The position numbers were made by a program, and so were the translations under genes. Positions 1 to 31,747 of a stretch of 33,251 nt of DNA are shown here, piece after piece. Source of the stretch: Candidatus Aenigmatarchaeota archaeon (GTDB taxonomy: Archaea; Aenigmatarchaeota; Aenigmatarchaeia; QMZP01; JAFGSV01). Positions within the stretch are counted from its first letter, which is position 1, and each line of letters begins with the position of its first letter. Where the stretch lies: contig JAGGXP010000041.1 of NCBI GenBank assembly GCA_021163005.1, forward strand, positions 1-33,251, in the 5' to 3' direction. A model generated the notes under the pieces. It made no database searches and was not told where the DNA came from. It saw only the letters and a list, made by a program, of their open reading frames with translations.

Positions 1-140
1 ACATATAAGATGTCACTATAGACAATCCTAAACTTGAAAAAGGCAATAAAACATACACATGCGAAAACTGTAATAAAAAACTCAATCCAAAACATGATAG
101 CATATTTTCTCTATCAGACGTGACAACGTATGGTGAATCT

Positions 141-272
141 TCATATCGTTTTACCTTCAATTATCTCCTTTAATCCCGATTTTTCAGCGAGTATTTCATA
201 AGTAATGGTCTTTCTTTCTTTTGCTTTACTCTTAATAATATTATAAATTTCTTGGATTATCTCTTCATCCAT
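141..272 (-). CDS. Possible 43-aa small ORF (MDEEIIQEIYNIIKSKAKERKTITYEILAEKSGLKEIIEGKTI), perhaps a truncated helical/HTH protein
   Basis: Hand-translated from ATG at 272 to TGA at 141; helical, protein-like composition; too short to assign. Confidence 0.3.
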   Translation of the reverse strand: MDEEIIQEIYNIIKSKAKERKTITYEILAEKSGLKEIIEGKTI

Positions 273-324
273 TACAAATTTTTGTTAAGTATCCTTAAAA
301 AACTTAAATTCCCCCTCTAAATCG

Positions 325-474
325 TTAATCTCCCGGCGGGGGCATATCTTCTATTAAATCAAACACGTCAACAACCGTCCGACAAAGCCGACAAAACATT
401 CCATCTATAATGATGCTGTGTGTGCTGAACCTGCCGGAATGATTCTTGCCCCTTTTATGGGGTTTCTTTAGACC
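325..474 (-). other. Open frame directly after the E1-like gene, in its -1 frame, encoding GLKKPHKRGKNHSGRFSTHSIIIDGMFCRLCRTVVDVFDLIEDMPPPGD-stop
   Basis: Codon-by-codon reading on the minus strand; joins the E1 frame if a -1 slip (or a missing base) occurs in the T5 run at 475-479; contains CRLC. Confidence 0.4.
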
Positions 475-1016
475 AAAAATTCAGAGAGTTCTTCCATTAC
501 GCCTGCAGCAGCCATGAGAAAGCCGAATTTCACCCTGACGCCCTGAAGATGTTCCCCGCCCTGGCAGGAATGCCTTGTTTTCATTTTGCTTCCGGATGGC
601 AGCGATTCTGCTGCCTGCCTGCTTTCGGGTTTCCTGCTGCTGAACACAACCCATTGCGAGCCACTGCATCTCGCATCAATCCATTGTTTTTTTGTCCTGT
701 ATACAAGATGCCTCGATGCCTCATTGTCGGTGGTTGTTATCACAAGGTCAAAAGGCCGGAGTTGCCTGCTGCTGGTGATATATTCGGGCAGGGCCTTCAT
801 ATGATACCTTTTCGCCAGCACTTCCGTCTTGTTTTTGCCTATGTCCTCGGATTCAAACCGTTGCCAGAGCAGGTTTTTCAACTCAACCCTGTCACCGTCC
901 GCAAGTGTCACATCGGCTCTGATTATGCTGTTCCTTCTCGCGAATTCGAGGAATTCAGCCAGCCAAGATCCTATCCCGCCGCAGCCCATTATCAGTATTT
1001 TCCGCTGCATGGACAC
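468..1016 (-). CDS. ThiF/MoeB/UBA-type (E1-like) adenylating enzyme, short form
   Basis: N-terminal nucleotide-binding GCGGIGSWLAEF; ADGDRVELKNLLWQRF resembles xDxDxVExxNLxRQ; GKNKTEVLAKR; TTTDNEASR; SCQGG...FLMAAAGVMEEL. Confidence 0.8.
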   Translation of the reverse strand: MSMQRKILIMGCGGIGSWLAEFLEFARRNSIIRADVTLADGDRVELKNLLWQRFESEDIGKNKTEVLAKRYHMKALPEYITSSRQLRPFDLVITTTDNEASRHLVYRTKKQWIDARCSGSQWVVFSSRKPESRQAAESLPSGSKMKTRHSCQGGEHLQGVRVKFGFLMAAAGVMEELSEFLV

Positions 1017-1025
1017 TGACTCCTC

Positions 1026-1253
1026 CTATCTCCTGAACTGTTTCCGCGGCGGAAGTTTTTTCAGGCCGTGCATTATTTCAAGCACGCATTTTTCCGAACA
1101 CGCGTCCTTCTCAAAGCGTGTCACCTCAACGGGTCCCAAACTTTCCGCGGCTGTTATCGTGAACCAGCCGTACGGAAGATCGTAACCGTTCCTGACAGTC
1201 TCTTCCTTTCCGCAGCTGTCGCACCTGATTCTGCGGTATTCAGCTATTGACAT
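1026..1253 (-). CDS. 75-aa putative zinc-binding protein (CxxC...CxxxC, treble-clef-like)
   Basis: RCDSCGKEE...DACSEKCVLEIM; about 10 nt upstream of the E1-like start. Confidence 0.65.
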   Translation of the reverse strand: MSIAEYRRIRCDSCGKEETVRNGYDLPYGWFTITAAESLGPVEVTRFEKDACSEKCVLEIMHGLKKLPPRKQFRR

Positions 1254-1286
1254 GTTTTCCCTCCCCTCAGACAGATGAAGGGCTCT

Positions 1287-1481
1287 TCAGCCCCCGACAA
1301 GTCTGTCTGTTATGATGACCTCGGAGTCATCTTCTATGCTGTCTGCTGCCGGCTGGAACATGCCGTCTTTGAAAACCCATTTTCCGGCGGCTATCTGCTC
1401 GGCTATGTAGGACGTCGCTTCCTCCGTCTTCAGTTCCAGTTCTGTGTGTCCATTTTCATTCAGCACTTTTATTTTTACCAT
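1287..1481 (-). CDS. 64-aa putative ubiquitin-like (beta-grasp) modifier with C-terminal di-glycine
   Basis: MVKIKVLNENGHTELELKTEEATSYIAEQI...DDSEVIITDRLVGG-stop; two N-terminal strand-like segments then a helix, final hydrophobic strand and RLVGG tail (ubiquitin ends RLRGG); codons verified at 1287-1316; E1-like gene two genes downstream. Confidence 0.7.
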   Translation of the reverse strand: MVKIKVLNENGHTELELKTEEATSYIAEQIAAGKWVFKDGMFQPAADSIEDDSEVIITDRLVGG

Positions 1482-1499
1482 TTTACTACCTCCTTTTAA

Positions 1500-3080
1500 T
1501 TAAGAGATTATGACTTCATCGTTGCCCTCATCAGAAAGTGTCTCGACCTCTGCTTTGAGAGACGTGTCGTTGAGCAGGAGAAGCATCTGCGAAAGCAGTC
1601 TGTCCGAATTGACTAAATACTTTTTTCTGTCATCTTCTTCAATGCAGATATACCCTCCGGCCGGAAATGTGCGTACTTCTGTATCGTTGCTTATGAAATA
1701 ATTGCGTATCTCTCCTTTGACTATGTAGCCTTCCTCACCGTCGAAAACATCTTTTTTTATTCTGTCCCTGTGTTTCTCCAGGAATTCCCTAAGCAACCTG
1801 TCTGCATTTCTTTTCGCCTTTGCAGCGTTCTCCCTGGCTAGTTCCATTATCTTAAGGGTGTCCTTCTTGCCGAATATTGAAGAAAGCCGACGGAACATCC
1901 AAGAGACTTCAAAATGGTCTATTAACCAGCGAGGAGGTTTGGCAATATCCGGTAAATAGTCACGGAAGAACATATCATCGAGTTCTGAAACGTTGTATTT
2001 CAAAGGCACGGTTTTCCCGTCGAGCGGCGATACCGCGTACATTTTCCCCTGTTCGTAAGACACTGCTATTTTGATGTGAAATTCCTTGTCTCCATCGGCT
2101 TTGAGACCGCGGGCGCTGAACAGCAATCCCCTTTCCAGCTGCCGTTTGACAGCTATGGGTGTCACGGAAAGTTCGCTGCTCATTTTAAGTAACTCTTTTC
2201 GGCTTTTAATGTCCGGGGAATTCATGATAAGATGGCCGAGGCTTTCGGTGTCTATTTCCCTGCCGTCTATGAAAAATCTGTTCTTCTTCACCTCAAACCA
2301 AAAGTATATGTCTCCCAGTATCATTTTGTACCTGCCGTTCTGAAGATTCGTAATGTTTTCGGAAATGGATTTAAGGATATATTCAACATTTGCTTGGGAA
2401 TGAAGAAGAGAAAAGCAGCTGGGGAGTCCCATATTCACATATGAGACGATGTCTGTATTTTCTATGCCGTATTTCCTTCCTTTGTAAATGAAGAATTTTC
2501 GTGTCATTTTCAGCGGCCCCTTATTATGCAAAAGATTCTTTCTAAGCCTTTCGAAAAGTCTCATGTTTACTTTCAGCTCCTTCTCTGTGAATGTGCCCTT
2601 CCTGTTTTTGCCGGAAGGTGATTCGAGAATGTCAAAAAAGATGTCCTCGTCCATGGCTGTTTCATCAATCGGCCAGTAGTTCATATTGAATGTCCGCGTT
2701 TTGGATTTGGCCTTGATTTTTCTCACTGTTTCGCTGCCGAGGTTTTTCGTTCGGATTATGATACCGTCAAACTCGTAAAATCCATCTTCGAAATGTCTGT
2801 ATCTTGGCTGGTTGTATTTCGAGATTTCCAGTTCCCTGCTATTCCACAGCACGAACTTTGTTCTCCCCTTCGTCCAGACCTTTTCAATTCTGAGCAGACG
2901 ATCAGACCGCCAAGTGTTCATCCCAAAGGAATCAGGCATTTTGATGGAGACTGGCTTCGTCATCGAGGACCAGACGCTTTTAAGATTAGGGTCCTCTATC
3001 CCGTAAATCTTCAGCGTGTAGTAAAGGTCTCTCCATGACATAAGACGCTCCTTAACTATTTCCTGATTTTCCAGCAACAT
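1500..3080 (-). CDS. 526-aa uncharacterised protein of the Ubl/E1 cluster
   Basis: Long ORF 18 nt upstream of the Ubl gene, same strand; I recognise no family; only two Cys (PSCFSLL, GYICIEED). Confidence 0.75.
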   Translation of the reverse strand: MLLENQEIVKERLMSWRDLYYTLKIYGIEDPNLKSVWSSMTKPVSIKMPDSFGMNTWRSDRLLRIEKVWTKGRTKFVLWNSRELEISKYNQPRYRHFEDGFYEFDGIIIRTKNLGSETVRKIKAKSKTRTFNMNYWPIDETAMDEDIFFDILESPSGKNRKGTFTEKELKVNMRLFERLRKNLLHNKGPLKMTRKFFIYKGRKYGIENTDIVSYVNMGLPSCFSLLHSQANVEYILKSISENITNLQNGRYKMILGDIYFWFEVKKNRFFIDGREIDTESLGHLIMNSPDIKSRKELLKMSSELSVTPIAVKRQLERGLLFSARGLKADGDKEFHIKIAVSYEQGKMYAVSPLDGKTVPLKYNVSELDDMFFRDYLPDIAKPPRWLIDHFEVSWMFRRLSSIFGKKDTLKIMELARENAAKAKRNADRLLREFLEKHRDRIKKDVFDGEEGYIVKGEIRNYFISNDTEVRTFPAGGYICIEEDDRKKYLVNSDRLLSQMLLLLNDTSLKAEVETLSDEGNDEVIIS

Positions 3081-3185
3081 GAATCGTATAAGAAGCGAGG
3101 ATTAACTATGCTTTTGTTTTTTTTCGTGACGCGGAAAAAAGTCCGGACATGACGAAATATATCCATTCACAATGAAATGTTTCCG

Positions 3186-3464
3186 TTATTTTTTGGAATA
3201 TGCTTCAAAAAACGGGGGCATGTTGAATTTCGGATTACAGACATACCCGACCCTCGCCTTTCCATTAACTATCTTGCCGCTCGTTTTAATGATGTCCAGA
3301 TTTGCGAGTTCCCTAAGTATTGTATATACCCTGCTCTTGCCCATCGACAACCTTTCGATTATCTCGCTGGTAGTGAGTACACACCCGGCCCCATAAAGGC
3401 AAAGATAGACTTTCCAGTGCGAATGCGTCCACCTGCTTATCAGAAACTGTTCAATCTCGTTCAT
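3186..3464 (-). CDS. Winged-helix DNA-binding protein (TrmB/MarR-like)
   Basis: HWKVYLCLYGAGCVLTTSEIIERLSMGKSRVYTILRELANLDIIKTSGKIVNGKARVGYVCN reads as a wHTH; start overlaps the stop of the upstream gene. Confidence 0.65.
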   Translation of the reverse strand: MNEIEQFLISRWTHSHWKVYLCLYGAGCVLTTSEIIERLSMGKSRVYTILRELANLDIIKTSGKIVNGKARVGYVCNPKFNMPPFFEAYSKK

Positions 3465-4351
3465 CTGTCATCTACCTTTACTTTGTGCTTATCGCCGCCG
3501 CTTTCGTTTTCCATCAGCGAGAGATAGTAATCCCTCAGTTCCTTTTTGGCCTTAAACAGCATGTTCTCAAAATCTATATTTTTTTCAATGAACATGGATT
3601 CGATGATGGCGTTGGTGTTTTCTTCACTACCAACAGTAGGACTCGAGACCAGATGCAGGAGTATGAGATTTTTTATGAGTATTTGCTCGTCGGGCAGCAG
3701 TTTTTTCAAAAGGTCCTCCTTTATTATGGGATAAAAGAAGTTCACACCGGAATAGAACATGTAGTTATGGAAACCGTCAAAAATGTCACTGAGCGTTATA
3801 TCCGCTGTTTTAAAGTAATCGGCAATTACGTCTTTGAGGTATGTCAGAATAAAATTCTTCATCATCCTGTTTGAAAATATTTCCTTTCTATTCTTCATAA
3901 ACTCGTGTATGATTTTTCTCTCTTCTTTATCTTCATACACTACATATTTGTCATTATAATCGTAATCGAAACTTTTTATGAGAAGGGCATAAATCTTGTT
4001 CCAGTTGATTCTGATGAGCCTGTTCTTTCTTTTCGTTGAATCGAACCTCAACAGGTTTTTTTCCGCCATAATGTTAATCTGCCTCGTGATGGCCGCCTTT
4101 GACTTCTTCAGCATCTTGGCTATATCAATCGCTCTCATTCCCTTATGAGTGATTTTCTTGCCGTCTTCAGATTCTGCAAAGAATTCATCGTCGGCAAGCA
4201 GTGCCAGAATGGAAAATATAGGAGACGAATCGAGAATTTTATCCGGTTTCATCATTTCCCTGGCTTCTTCAATAGTCAGACTCTCCCTGACTGATTCCTC
4301 TCCGGTTTCTGCACCTTCCATGTCTTTTTCGACATTCTTTCCTGAAGTCAT
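3461..4351 (-). CDS. Winged-helix (MarR/ArsR-like) transcriptional regulator, 296 aa
   Basis: KGMRAIDIAKMLKKSKAAITRQINIMAEKNLLRFDSTKRKNRLIRIN is a HTH segment; 4-nt overlap with the following gene. Confidence 0.65.
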   Translation of the reverse strand: MTSGKNVEKDMEGAETGEESVRESLTIEEAREMMKPDKILDSSPIFSILALLADDEFFAESEDGKKITHKGMRAIDIAKMLKKSKAAITRQINIMAEKNLLRFDSTKRKNRLIRINWNKIYALLIKSFDYDYNDKYVVYEDKEERKIIHEFMKNRKEIFSNRMMKNFILTYLKDVIADYFKTADITLSDIFDGFHNYMFYSGVNFFYPIIKEDLLKKLLPDEQILIKNLILLHLVSSPTVGSEENTNAIIESMFIEKNIDFENMLFKAKKELRDYYLSLMENESGGDKHKVKVDDR

Positions 4352-4370
4352 GCATTATTTTCAGTGCAAA

Positions 4371-4381
4371 GTTTTAAAAAC
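4371..4381 (-). promoter_or_regulatory. TATA-box-like promoter element for the regulator/Ubl cluster
   Basis: TTTTTAAAAC about 25 nt upstream of the 4351 ATG on the minus strand, consistent with a leaderless archaeal transcript. Confidence 0.45.
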
Positions 4382-4474
4382 AGTTAACATCATGTAAACT
4401 ATATTTTCCATCGCAGATATGGAATTGTATATTTTTGGTGCATTGTTTTTAGAGCTTATTTCTAACATCTCATC

Positions 4475-4741
4475 ATGGAAAGCGCCAAGAAGTCCGATTC
4501 AACGGGCATGATGATTATAGACTTCAGCAACGGCGTCCGGGTCATGCTCGACGTGCATGCGCTTCTCAGGGACGGGAACGGACGCAGGTTCATAAGAGCG
4601 ATGGGCGATACTTTGAGGCGCGGCCTGGTGACGAAAGAGAATCTTGAAGCGGACAACAGAAGGCGCTTAGAGAGGGACTTGCTCATCGCCCAAAATGCCG
4701 GTGATGTCATCTGGAACCCAAAGAAATACGCGCATGTTTAG
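4475..4741 (+). CDS. Hypothetical protein, 88 aa
   Basis: Complete ORF between divergent and convergent neighbours; no recognised motif. Confidence 0.55.
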   Translation: MESAKKSDSTGMMIIDFSNGVRVMLDVHALLRDGNGRRFIRAMGDTLRRGLVTKENLEADNRRRLERDLLIAQNAGDVIWNPKKYAHV

Positions 4742-4749
4742 CTGCTTTT

Positions 4750-5922
4750 TCACGCAGGGACTCTCGCTATCTTCCACCGCACGAGAAGCCATGAGAACAA
4801 CATGGGTATCATGAATGTGAACACTATGCTCGACGCCACGACGACCGAGTAGAGCTCAATGCCTATGAGTCCGCTGTCAAAGAGTATCTTTATGATTATA
4901 ATGCTCGTGCTGAACCTCACTGAAAGCCCTATGCCCAGCATTATGCTCTCCCTGAAAGGCATGGAATTTCTCGCTGTAAGCAGGCTTCCTATGAGCTTCG
5001 ACGCCATGGAAACCGCGACTATCAGCAGTATCATTACCGGGAAGGATGTCAGATAGGATATGTCGAGAGACGCTCCCACCCATACGAAGAATATGGGGGC
5101 GAAAAAGCCGTAGCATACAGACTTCACCTCGCTCTCTATGAGCCTCAGTCTCTTTTTGGAAACGAATGTCCTGAGCCCTATGCCGGCGAGGAATGCGGCA
5201 AGGGCAGTCGCCTCGGCGTATTGCCCTATGCCGAGGAACAGGAACAGCACGAAAATCGAGAAAATGAAGAGCGTTTCTATGTTGAGGAAGTTGAACTTCT
5301 CACCCTCTTCCTTGAGCTTGCTGAAGGTGAAGGTGAGTACAAACAGGGCAAGCAACGAGCCGAGAATCAGCCAGATGTTGACGCTGCCAGCCTCAGCTGT
5401 TGTCGTGCCGACAACAGCCACCACCATGACAAGAGCCGCCACCTCTATGATGTCGTCAAGCACACCTATGCCTATTATGGCCTCACCCAGCCTGGTCCTG
5501 ACCATCCTGAACTCGTCGAGTATGGGTATAAGTATGGCCTCGCCTACCGTTGCGAACGACAGGGCCACGAGGAACGATACCAACCAGCCGTAGCCGAACA
5601 CGAAGTACACCAGAAGTGTGCCGAAGAATGCCTCGAAAAGTATGATGAAGAATGTTGACTTTAGCAGGAATGCTCCCTTCTTCTTCATGTCCTTTAGGTC
5701 TATCTCGAAGCCTATGATGAACAGGAGGAAGTACATGCCGAGCTGTGCCAAGAATGCAAAGCTCTCAGAGCCCGTGACGTCCGAAAACGGGTTGTACACT
5801 GCTAAAAGCACGCCGAATATGAGGGCGGCGAAAATCCACGGCATCCTGAAACGCTCGAGCACCTTTCCCACTATTATCGTGAAGATGAATGCCACAGCGA
5901 GAACCAAAAACATGTTTAGCAT
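4750..5922 (-). CDS. CPA2-type cation/proton antiporter (Kef/Na+:H+ antiporter family)
   Basis: Many TM segments; LAQLGMYFLLFIIGFEIDLKDMKKKG...GEAIIGIGVLDDIIEVAALV...AFLAGIGL; start taken at MLNMFLV. Confidence 0.85.
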   Translation of the reverse strand: MLNMFLVLAVAFIFTIIVGKVLERFRMPWIFAALIFGVLLAVYNPFSDVTGSESFAFLAQLGMYFLLFIIGFEIDLKDMKKKGAFLLKSTFFIILFEAFFGTLLVYFVFGYGWLVSFLVALSFATVGEAILIPILDEFRMVRTRLGEAIIGIGVLDDIIEVAALVMVVAVVGTTTAEAGSVNIWLILGSLLALFVLTFTFSKLKEEGEKFNFLNIETLFIFSIFVLFLFLGIGQYAEATALAAFLAGIGLRTFVSKKRLRLIESEVKSVCYGFFAPIFFVWVGASLDISYLTSFPVMILLIVAVSMASKLIGSLLTARNSMPFRESIMLGIGLSVRFSTSIIIIKILFDSGLIGIELYSVVVASSIVFTFMIPMLFSWLLVRWKIARVPA

Positions 5923-5979
5923 AATAAAACTTTGTCTTTGCCTATAATAAATTCCCCGCATGCGAATGCAGGGAGCAAC

Positions 5980-31353: not shown

Positions 31354-31387
31354 ATGTGTTTTTAAGAATTTGAACCAAAATCTAATT

Positions 31388-31747
31388 ATGGCAGGCTTCA
31401 TTTATCCGTCGAGAGAATCAATCATAAGCGTCAACAAGATCGTCAATCTCATGTCCGATAATAAGGCAGACTCGCACAAGCTTCTAATCAACAAAAGATT
31501 CATAGATGCTGTACTGGAAAGAGTCAGGAAAAACAAAGGCGATGTCTATGAAAAGGCCGCGGTACTTCTGGAAGGTTTAGTAAAAACTCATGGATTTGCA
31601 AGCGGAAACAAGAGAACTGGCTTTGTTGTGACAACCTATTTCATAAAGAAGAATGGCGGTAAAACAAGATTCGATGATTTCTACATGGTGGAAAAGGTTT
31701 TAAGAAACATACGCCTATATAATACATCAGAGCTGCTGAGTGGCTGA
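31388..31747 (+). CDS. Doc/Fic-fold protein (death-on-curing-like)
   Basis: VKTHGFASGNKRTGFVVTTYFIKKNG resembles HxFx(D/E)(G/A)N(G/K)R; start taken at MAGF. Confidence 0.78.
   Translation: MAGFIYPSRESIISVNKIVNLMSDNKADSHKLLINKRFIDAVLERVRKNKGDVYEKAAVLLEGLVKTHGFASGNKRTGFVVTTYFIKKNGGKTRFDDFYMVEKVLRNIRLYNTSELLSG

Follow-up and report, generated by a model that had tools for sequence, protein, structure and literature searches.

A candidate minimal ubiquitin-like conjugation module in an island of a DPANN-type archaeon, with a counterpart in magrovirus-like contigs

Contig JAGGXP010000041.1 of a Candidatus Aenigmatarchaeota archaeon carries at its left end genes for a ubiquitin-like protein (Ubl), an E1-like enzyme and a 526-aa protein, which raises the question whether they serve protein conjugation, sulfur transfer or neither. 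The entire contig (33,251 bp) was analysed and is called the window; it belongs to a genome assembly of 945 kb in 43 contigs, and from its size and relatives its host is inferred to be a small DPANN-type archaeon. An earlier note, made from the DNA letters alone, had proposed a conjugation or sulfur-transfer cluster of six genes: two winged helix-turn-helix (wHTH) regulators, the 526-aa protein, the Ubl, a zinc protein and the E1-like enzyme. Of the two functions conjugation was favoured, and sulfur transfer became the weaker reading, given a sporadic distribution and no adjacent sulfur genes. With a probability somewhat above even, the 526-aa protein, the Ubl and the E1 would form a minimal Ubl conjugation module of the type carried by archaeal viruses or mobile elements, located in a variable island. 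This reading is favoured because of the Ubl fold, the E1 family, the conserved Cys, co-conservation and linkage of the genes, the viral counterpart and the sporadic distribution.

All features of the cluster are encoded on the minus strand. The Ubl gene (1287..1481) encodes 64 aa with the mature C-terminus RLVGG (...TDRLVGG; Gly-Gly codons at 1290..1295), and an AGGAGG Shine-Dalgarno sequence (1489..1494) is located 7 nt ahead of its start. Library scans gave no family match for the Ubl, the 526-aa protein or the zinc protein. The β-grasp fold, on which the earlier note had staked its proposal, is predicted for the Ubl by AlphaFold2 (AF2; pLDDT 86.8) with the order β-β-α-β-β. Foldseek matched the model to ubiquitin, MoaD and TtuB in the PDB (best TM score 0.70, TtuB; best E-value 4.3e-3). 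None of these matches had an E-value under 0.001, which is unsurprising because the protein has only 64 residues. The E1-like protein (468..1016, 182 aa from GTG; an alternative ATG at 1010 would give 180 aa) matches Pfam ThiF (1.3e-17), and its gene is also preceded by a Shine-Dalgarno sequence. The proposed pair of a Ubl ending in GG and an E1-like protein is supported by these predictions.

Relatives were sought in 156 genomes of the class and phylum. The 526-aa protein was found in two of them, the host (G000) and G008, a member of another family of the order, and the Ubl profile detects the same two genomes. The specific E1 group occurs in three (host, G008 and G023). G008 (contig C8) encodes a 512-aa protein, 34% identical to the 526-aa protein, followed by Ubl and E1; the Ubl, when continued in the next frame, ends ...LRMVGG. 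Co-conservation of Ubl and E1-like genes in relatives, as the earlier note had expected, is borne out by this linked set. G023 encodes, ahead of its E1, a 702-aa protein related to the 526-aa protein (E-value 3e-10). The 33-kb contig concerned (C32; L012, L013) also contains genes for ParB and a RecU-like nuclease and, immediately behind the E1 (ThiF) gene, one for a 79-aa protein ending in KGG; by its genes it looks like a plasmid or virus. The 79-aa protein was just suggestive of a Ubl (E-value 0.05) and was left out of the counts.

Single window proteins gave no matches in IMG/VR, and relatives were reached only with E1 alignments. In this way 305 candidate stretches with an E1 relative were obtained, 80 of which were kept for clustering of open reading frames (ORFs). 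The conserved viral order is Ubl, small genes, a ~396-aa protein (family f3), a TFB-like gene, E1, JAB peptidase, GroES-like, GroEL and then an ATP-dependent ligase. Where the sequence upstream of an E1 is 6.5 kb or longer, a Ubl is present in 48/52 loci and f3 in 52/52, and JAB accompanies 79/79 loci with enough downstream sequence; these counts are not independent events, since the contigs share ancestry. The JAB family carries the motif H-x-H...S-x-x-D in 119/119 sequences, and one member matches Pfam Prok-JAB at 4.5e-5, under the cut-off. The contigs are called magrovirus-like, that is, marine archaeal tailed viruses of the order Magrovirales by gene content, because in their genes and in their low GC (31-33% in L016-L018) they match what has been described for Magrovirales (PMC10768690). 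Homologous Ubl, E1 and Cys-bearing 396/526-aa proteins are encoded near one another in both settings, whereas the viruses add JAB, TFB and chaperonin genes and differ in gene order. The earlier view that the layout resembles none known was not supported, the core being common to this archaeal-virus module.

No matches were obtained in INPHARED phages by tblastn with the 526-aa protein, viral f3 or viral Ubl, and the window E1 gave partial ThiF matches alone. A scan of the viral contigs with alignment A4 also had no matches. In a Ubl scan of genome contigs, a magrovirus-type Ubl was present only in L153, L154 and L155, titled Altibacter sp. EAC109, which are probably of viral origin and were binned by mistake with a bacterial metagenome-assembled genome. 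L019 (2668-7729) and L021 are bacterial-phage-like contigs with a short E1 in which the Arg at MoeB R73 is kept; in L019, this E1 has a small MoaD-like protein encoded upstream of it and, by eye, a possible JAB-like protein downstream, resembling PRTRC.

The viral Ubl profile, with the window row excluded, matches the window Ubl with an E-value of 1.5e-12. Viral Ubls read ILNETGHTEL...THWVFVDGEMVSR...DLTPAIVGG and the window Ubl VLNENGHTEL...GKWVFKDGMF...ITDRLVGG. In the viruses an invariant GG is followed by no residue (11 loci), one (5) or two (40), whereas the archaeal Ubls end at GG without a tail and have no JAB nearby, the window Ubl ending in LVGG. Invariant GG, short variable tail and adjacent JAB would look like a processed Ubl precursor in the viruses. 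The C-terminal Gly-Gly expected of a conjugable Ubl, either free or exposed by a peptidase, is present in the window protein. Weak matches to Pfam Inhibitor_I24 (PinA peptidase inhibitor) were seen in 11/36 viral Ubls (alignment A8; best E-value 1.4e-4).

The 526-aa protein (1500..3080) is homologous to viral f3, the two families matching in hhalign with an E-value of 1.3e-10. They share the Cys motif G-x-I-C-I-D in the C-terminal domain (~residues 408-526, 1503..1859): Cys338 of f3 is invariant in 65 sequences (G-P-I-C-I-D-N) and aligns with Cys479 of the window protein (GGYICIEED; codon at 1644..1646). In the AF2 model of a viral f3 homologue (pLDDT 89.8), the Cys is surrounded by a helix, four strands, the Cys loop and two helices, which is an E2-like order. 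The C-domain matched an E2 profile, built from approximate sequences of six eukaryotic E2s, with an E-value of 0.0012 over ~109 columns and both Cys in register (hhalign). This match exceeds those to all 200 column-shuffled E2 alignments (closest 26.8 vs 27.1), and the best of 43 unrelated viral families used as controls reached an E-value of 0.031 over 8 columns. BFVD matches of the viral model were solely unnamed proteins of the same kind, and Pfam gave no consistent family for f3, its C-domain or the Ubls. From predicted topology and profile, we judge the chance that the C-terminal domain of this family is E2-like to be slightly better than even. The statement that no recognisable E2 is present needs amending to that extent. 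The HPN motif of E2s is absent. Paired strands, C-x-x and a helix would also suit a SWIM-like C-terminus of the 526-aa protein; this reading was rejected, the other zinc ligands and a Pfam SWIM match being missing, with no dedicated test made.

The E1 family is short (~185 aa) and has a single Cys where MoeB has CxxC. This Cys lies in an SCQ motif, present in 120/120 viral E1s, and is Cys151 in the window (564..566), invariant in alignments A1 and A3 and the candidate thioester Cys. In the E1 tree, for which the G008 row was joined over its frameshift, window and G008 group together (95/94) and are joined by G023 (85/84); the viral E1s are the neighbouring group (86/87). The window-type E1s stand apart from MoeB and from bacterial-phage E1s; the supports are moderate.

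In the proposed cascade, the E1-like enzyme would adenylate the exposed -GG of the Ubl, which would move to Cys151 of the E1 as a thioester and from there to Cys479 of the 526-aa protein, in its E2-like domain. The rest of that protein would select targets, and the Ubl would be joined to target amines. In the viruses, the JAB encoded near E1 may trim the Ubl precursor, take off the tag, or both; in the archaeal copies, the Ubl would be made already ending in GG. With genes for replication and chaperonins around the module, the likeliest role in the viruses would be to modify proteins of the host or the virus in the course of infection, which is proposed with low confidence. For the archaeal islands, regulated defence or competition between elements appears likeliest, again with low confidence. 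To the wider proposition, that tailed viruses of marine archaea, and mobile islands of DPANN archaea, possess an entire Ubl cascade of their own (precursor, minimal E1, new E2-like family, viral JAB) which modifies proteins during infection and was captured by hosts, we would give an even chance.

Were the Ubl a sulfur carrier instead, the E1 would adenylate it, its C-terminal thiocarboxylate would donate sulfur for tRNA thiolation or a cofactor, and the 526-aa protein would act as sulfurtransferase or acceptor. TtuB, the best match by TM score, is such a carrier, and MoaD is next; the E1-like protein is also the only ThiF-family protein of the host, whose genome has no ThiS/MoaD/SAMP Pfam match (including PF02597), so the module could fill a gap. 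Yet no sulfurtransferase, rhodanese, MoaE or ThiG-type gene lies beside the cluster, 153 of the 156 relatives lack the module, unlike a housekeeping tRNA modification, and the viral counterpart has JAB and a Cys-bearing partner rather than sulfur genes. Sulfur transfer is considered unlikely.

Several observations weigh against a conjugation module. The contig end adjoins the cluster. Of the four components of the viral module, the window has Ubl, E1 and the Cys-bearing protein; JAB was found neither in the window, as the earlier note had stated, nor in the genome, where Prok-JAB matched only a RadC-like protein. The Ubl and E1 of G008 carry one frameshift each (L011 5813-6620), two in all, which are either true decay or sequencing error. 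Concerning the E2-like domain, the hhalign probability is 20%, the modelled structure is that of the viral homologue and not of the 526-aa protein, in which the loop with the Cys is shorter, the HPN motif is missing as said above, and Foldseek of the full viral model ranked Ube2V1 and Ube2W top with probabilities of ~0.2, which is not significant. Furthermore, R14, R73, K86 and D130 are ATP-site residues of MoeB, and equivalents of the first two are missing from the E1: the N-terminal MoeB segment bearing R14 is lacking, and the R73 position is Tyr or Trp across the family (the E. coli MoeB row in this comparison was an approximate sequence). Adenylation is for this reason not assured, and the E1-like protein might no longer activate the Ubl, or only AMPylate it, with Ubl, E1 and 526-aa protein serving a mobile element as a complex that has a regulatory or structural task, such as maintaining the element; the G023 copy does lie on a ParB-bearing element. 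On the other hand, K86, D130, the glycine-rich loop, the SCQ Cys and the GG of the Ubl are all kept, and the viral Ubls hold their GG despite the varying tail and are accompanied by JAB. A non-conjugating complex is likewise unlikely and ranks behind sulfur transfer.

The module was also compared with described systems. The closest published layout is that of the bacterial PRTRC cassette, which we take to be operon type 6d. Both have a stand-alone small Ubl, a short stand-alone E1 and a separate Cys-bearing E2-like protein, whereas the window lacks JAB and ParB, and the Ubl and E2-like sequences are unrelated at family level. All equivalog models were under cut-off for the E1-like protein: the PRTRC ThiF model reached 41.8 of 144.75 bits with no other PRTRC model matched, and UbaA 18.1 of 450 bits, with PF02597 absent from the genome as noted; membership in PRTRC or SAMP/UbaA was rejected. 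SAMP/UbaA and Urm1-type systems are similar in that an archaeal GG Ubl is activated by a ThiF-family E1 with a probable E2-independent history, but the window E1 lacks the N-terminal segment and the zinc Cys of the MoeB/UbaA type. Type II CBASS, BIL and other E1-E2(-JAB) defence systems were also rejected: PADLOC E1-E2 models match the ThiF part only and neither fusion nor JAB was found, with no dedicated comparison to BIL proteins made. Type 6d comprises Ubl, JAB, E1, E2-like and helical proteins, and prokaryotic Ubl-E1-E2-JAB operons are known from the same work (Iyer et al. 2006, PMC1779556).

A passage of the RaFAH study (PMC8276007) counts a MoeB (ThiF family) gene among the auxiliary genes that predicted archaeal viruses carry most often and ties it to ubiquitination; Ubl, JAB, the Cys-bearing partner, Ubl tails and archaeal chromosomal copies are unmentioned in that passage. 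In the searchable literature neither the Ubl nor the Cys-bearing partner was found described, nor the module as a system; the original magrovirus paper lies outside that search, and earlier notice is possible. If the proposal is true, a common group of archaeal viruses in the ocean has a Ubl tagging pathway of its own, with an E2-like family as new candidate enzyme and a Ubl for which processing by JAB is predicted. Ubiquitination would then have one more, simple relative among prokaryotes, and the viral MoeB/ThiF gene noted as prevalent (PMC8276007) would acquire defined partners and a function open to testing. In the archaeal copies, where the Ubl is mature and JAB is missing, three genes would make up a minimal set suited to in vitro reconstitution.

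The six closely packed minus-strand genes of the earlier note are all present and intact, with spacings exactly as claimed: the genes of the 296-aa protein with a MarR-like winged helix (3461..4351; Pfam MarR 7.5e-4, under cut-off) and of the 92-aa winged-helix, TrmB-like regulator (3186..3464; Pfam TrmB 5.4e-5, just under cut-off) overlap by 4 nt, and gaps of 105, 18, 33 and 9 nt follow up to the 526-aa, Ubl, zinc and E1-like genes. The E1-like gene was corrected, its real stop being at 468 and not 325; 325-467 is non-coding, and the RNA structure of 325-470 is unremarkable (z -1.4). The zinc protein (1026..1253; 75 aa, small, zinc-ribbon-like, CxxC...CxxxC) and the two regulators had been counted as cluster members. 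Judged by gene content, the zinc protein does not appear to be a conserved module part, as no zinc gene lies between Ubl and E1 in G008 and no viral counterpart was recognised. Nor do the regulators, whose link to the module was seen in the window alone, again with no viral counterpart recognised; beside the magrovirus-like module, these genes are extra.

The suggestion of an accessory island was upheld, for nothing of 1-5970 is found at the corresponding site in G001, G002 and G003, while synteny with congeners exists above ~5980. PfkB served as the anchor for this comparison; the Na+/H+ exchanger was also tried and gave no anchor. The claimed AT-richness applies to most of 1.5-4.5 kb (GC ~0.38-0.44 vs ~0.51 to the right) and not to the Ubl/zinc/E1 stretch (~0.50). 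A decaying remnant of an integrated virus or plasmid without present function would agree with the sporadic occurrence (2-3 of 156 genomes), the lack of JAB, the variable flank, the G008 frameshifts and the position at a contig end, but is the least probable of the alternatives, since the six ORFs are unbroken and closely packed, a strong ribosome-binding site precedes the Ubl, and C151, C479 and GG are kept. In favour of conjugation it also counts that the host genome encodes two 20S proteasome subunits and neither another ThiF-family protein nor ThiS/MoaD.

Since the window is a single whole contig with the cluster at its left end, the view ends at position 1 and genes past it are out of view. 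A short ORF (142-271, minus strand; MDEEIIQEIYNIIKSKAKERKTITYEILAEKSGLKE...) lies past the E1 gene towards this contig end and may be a truncated gene belonging to the island. Near the AT-richer right contig end, a 125-aa ORF (31370-31747, plus strand) contains the motif HGFASGNKRTG as in Fic/Doc proteins.

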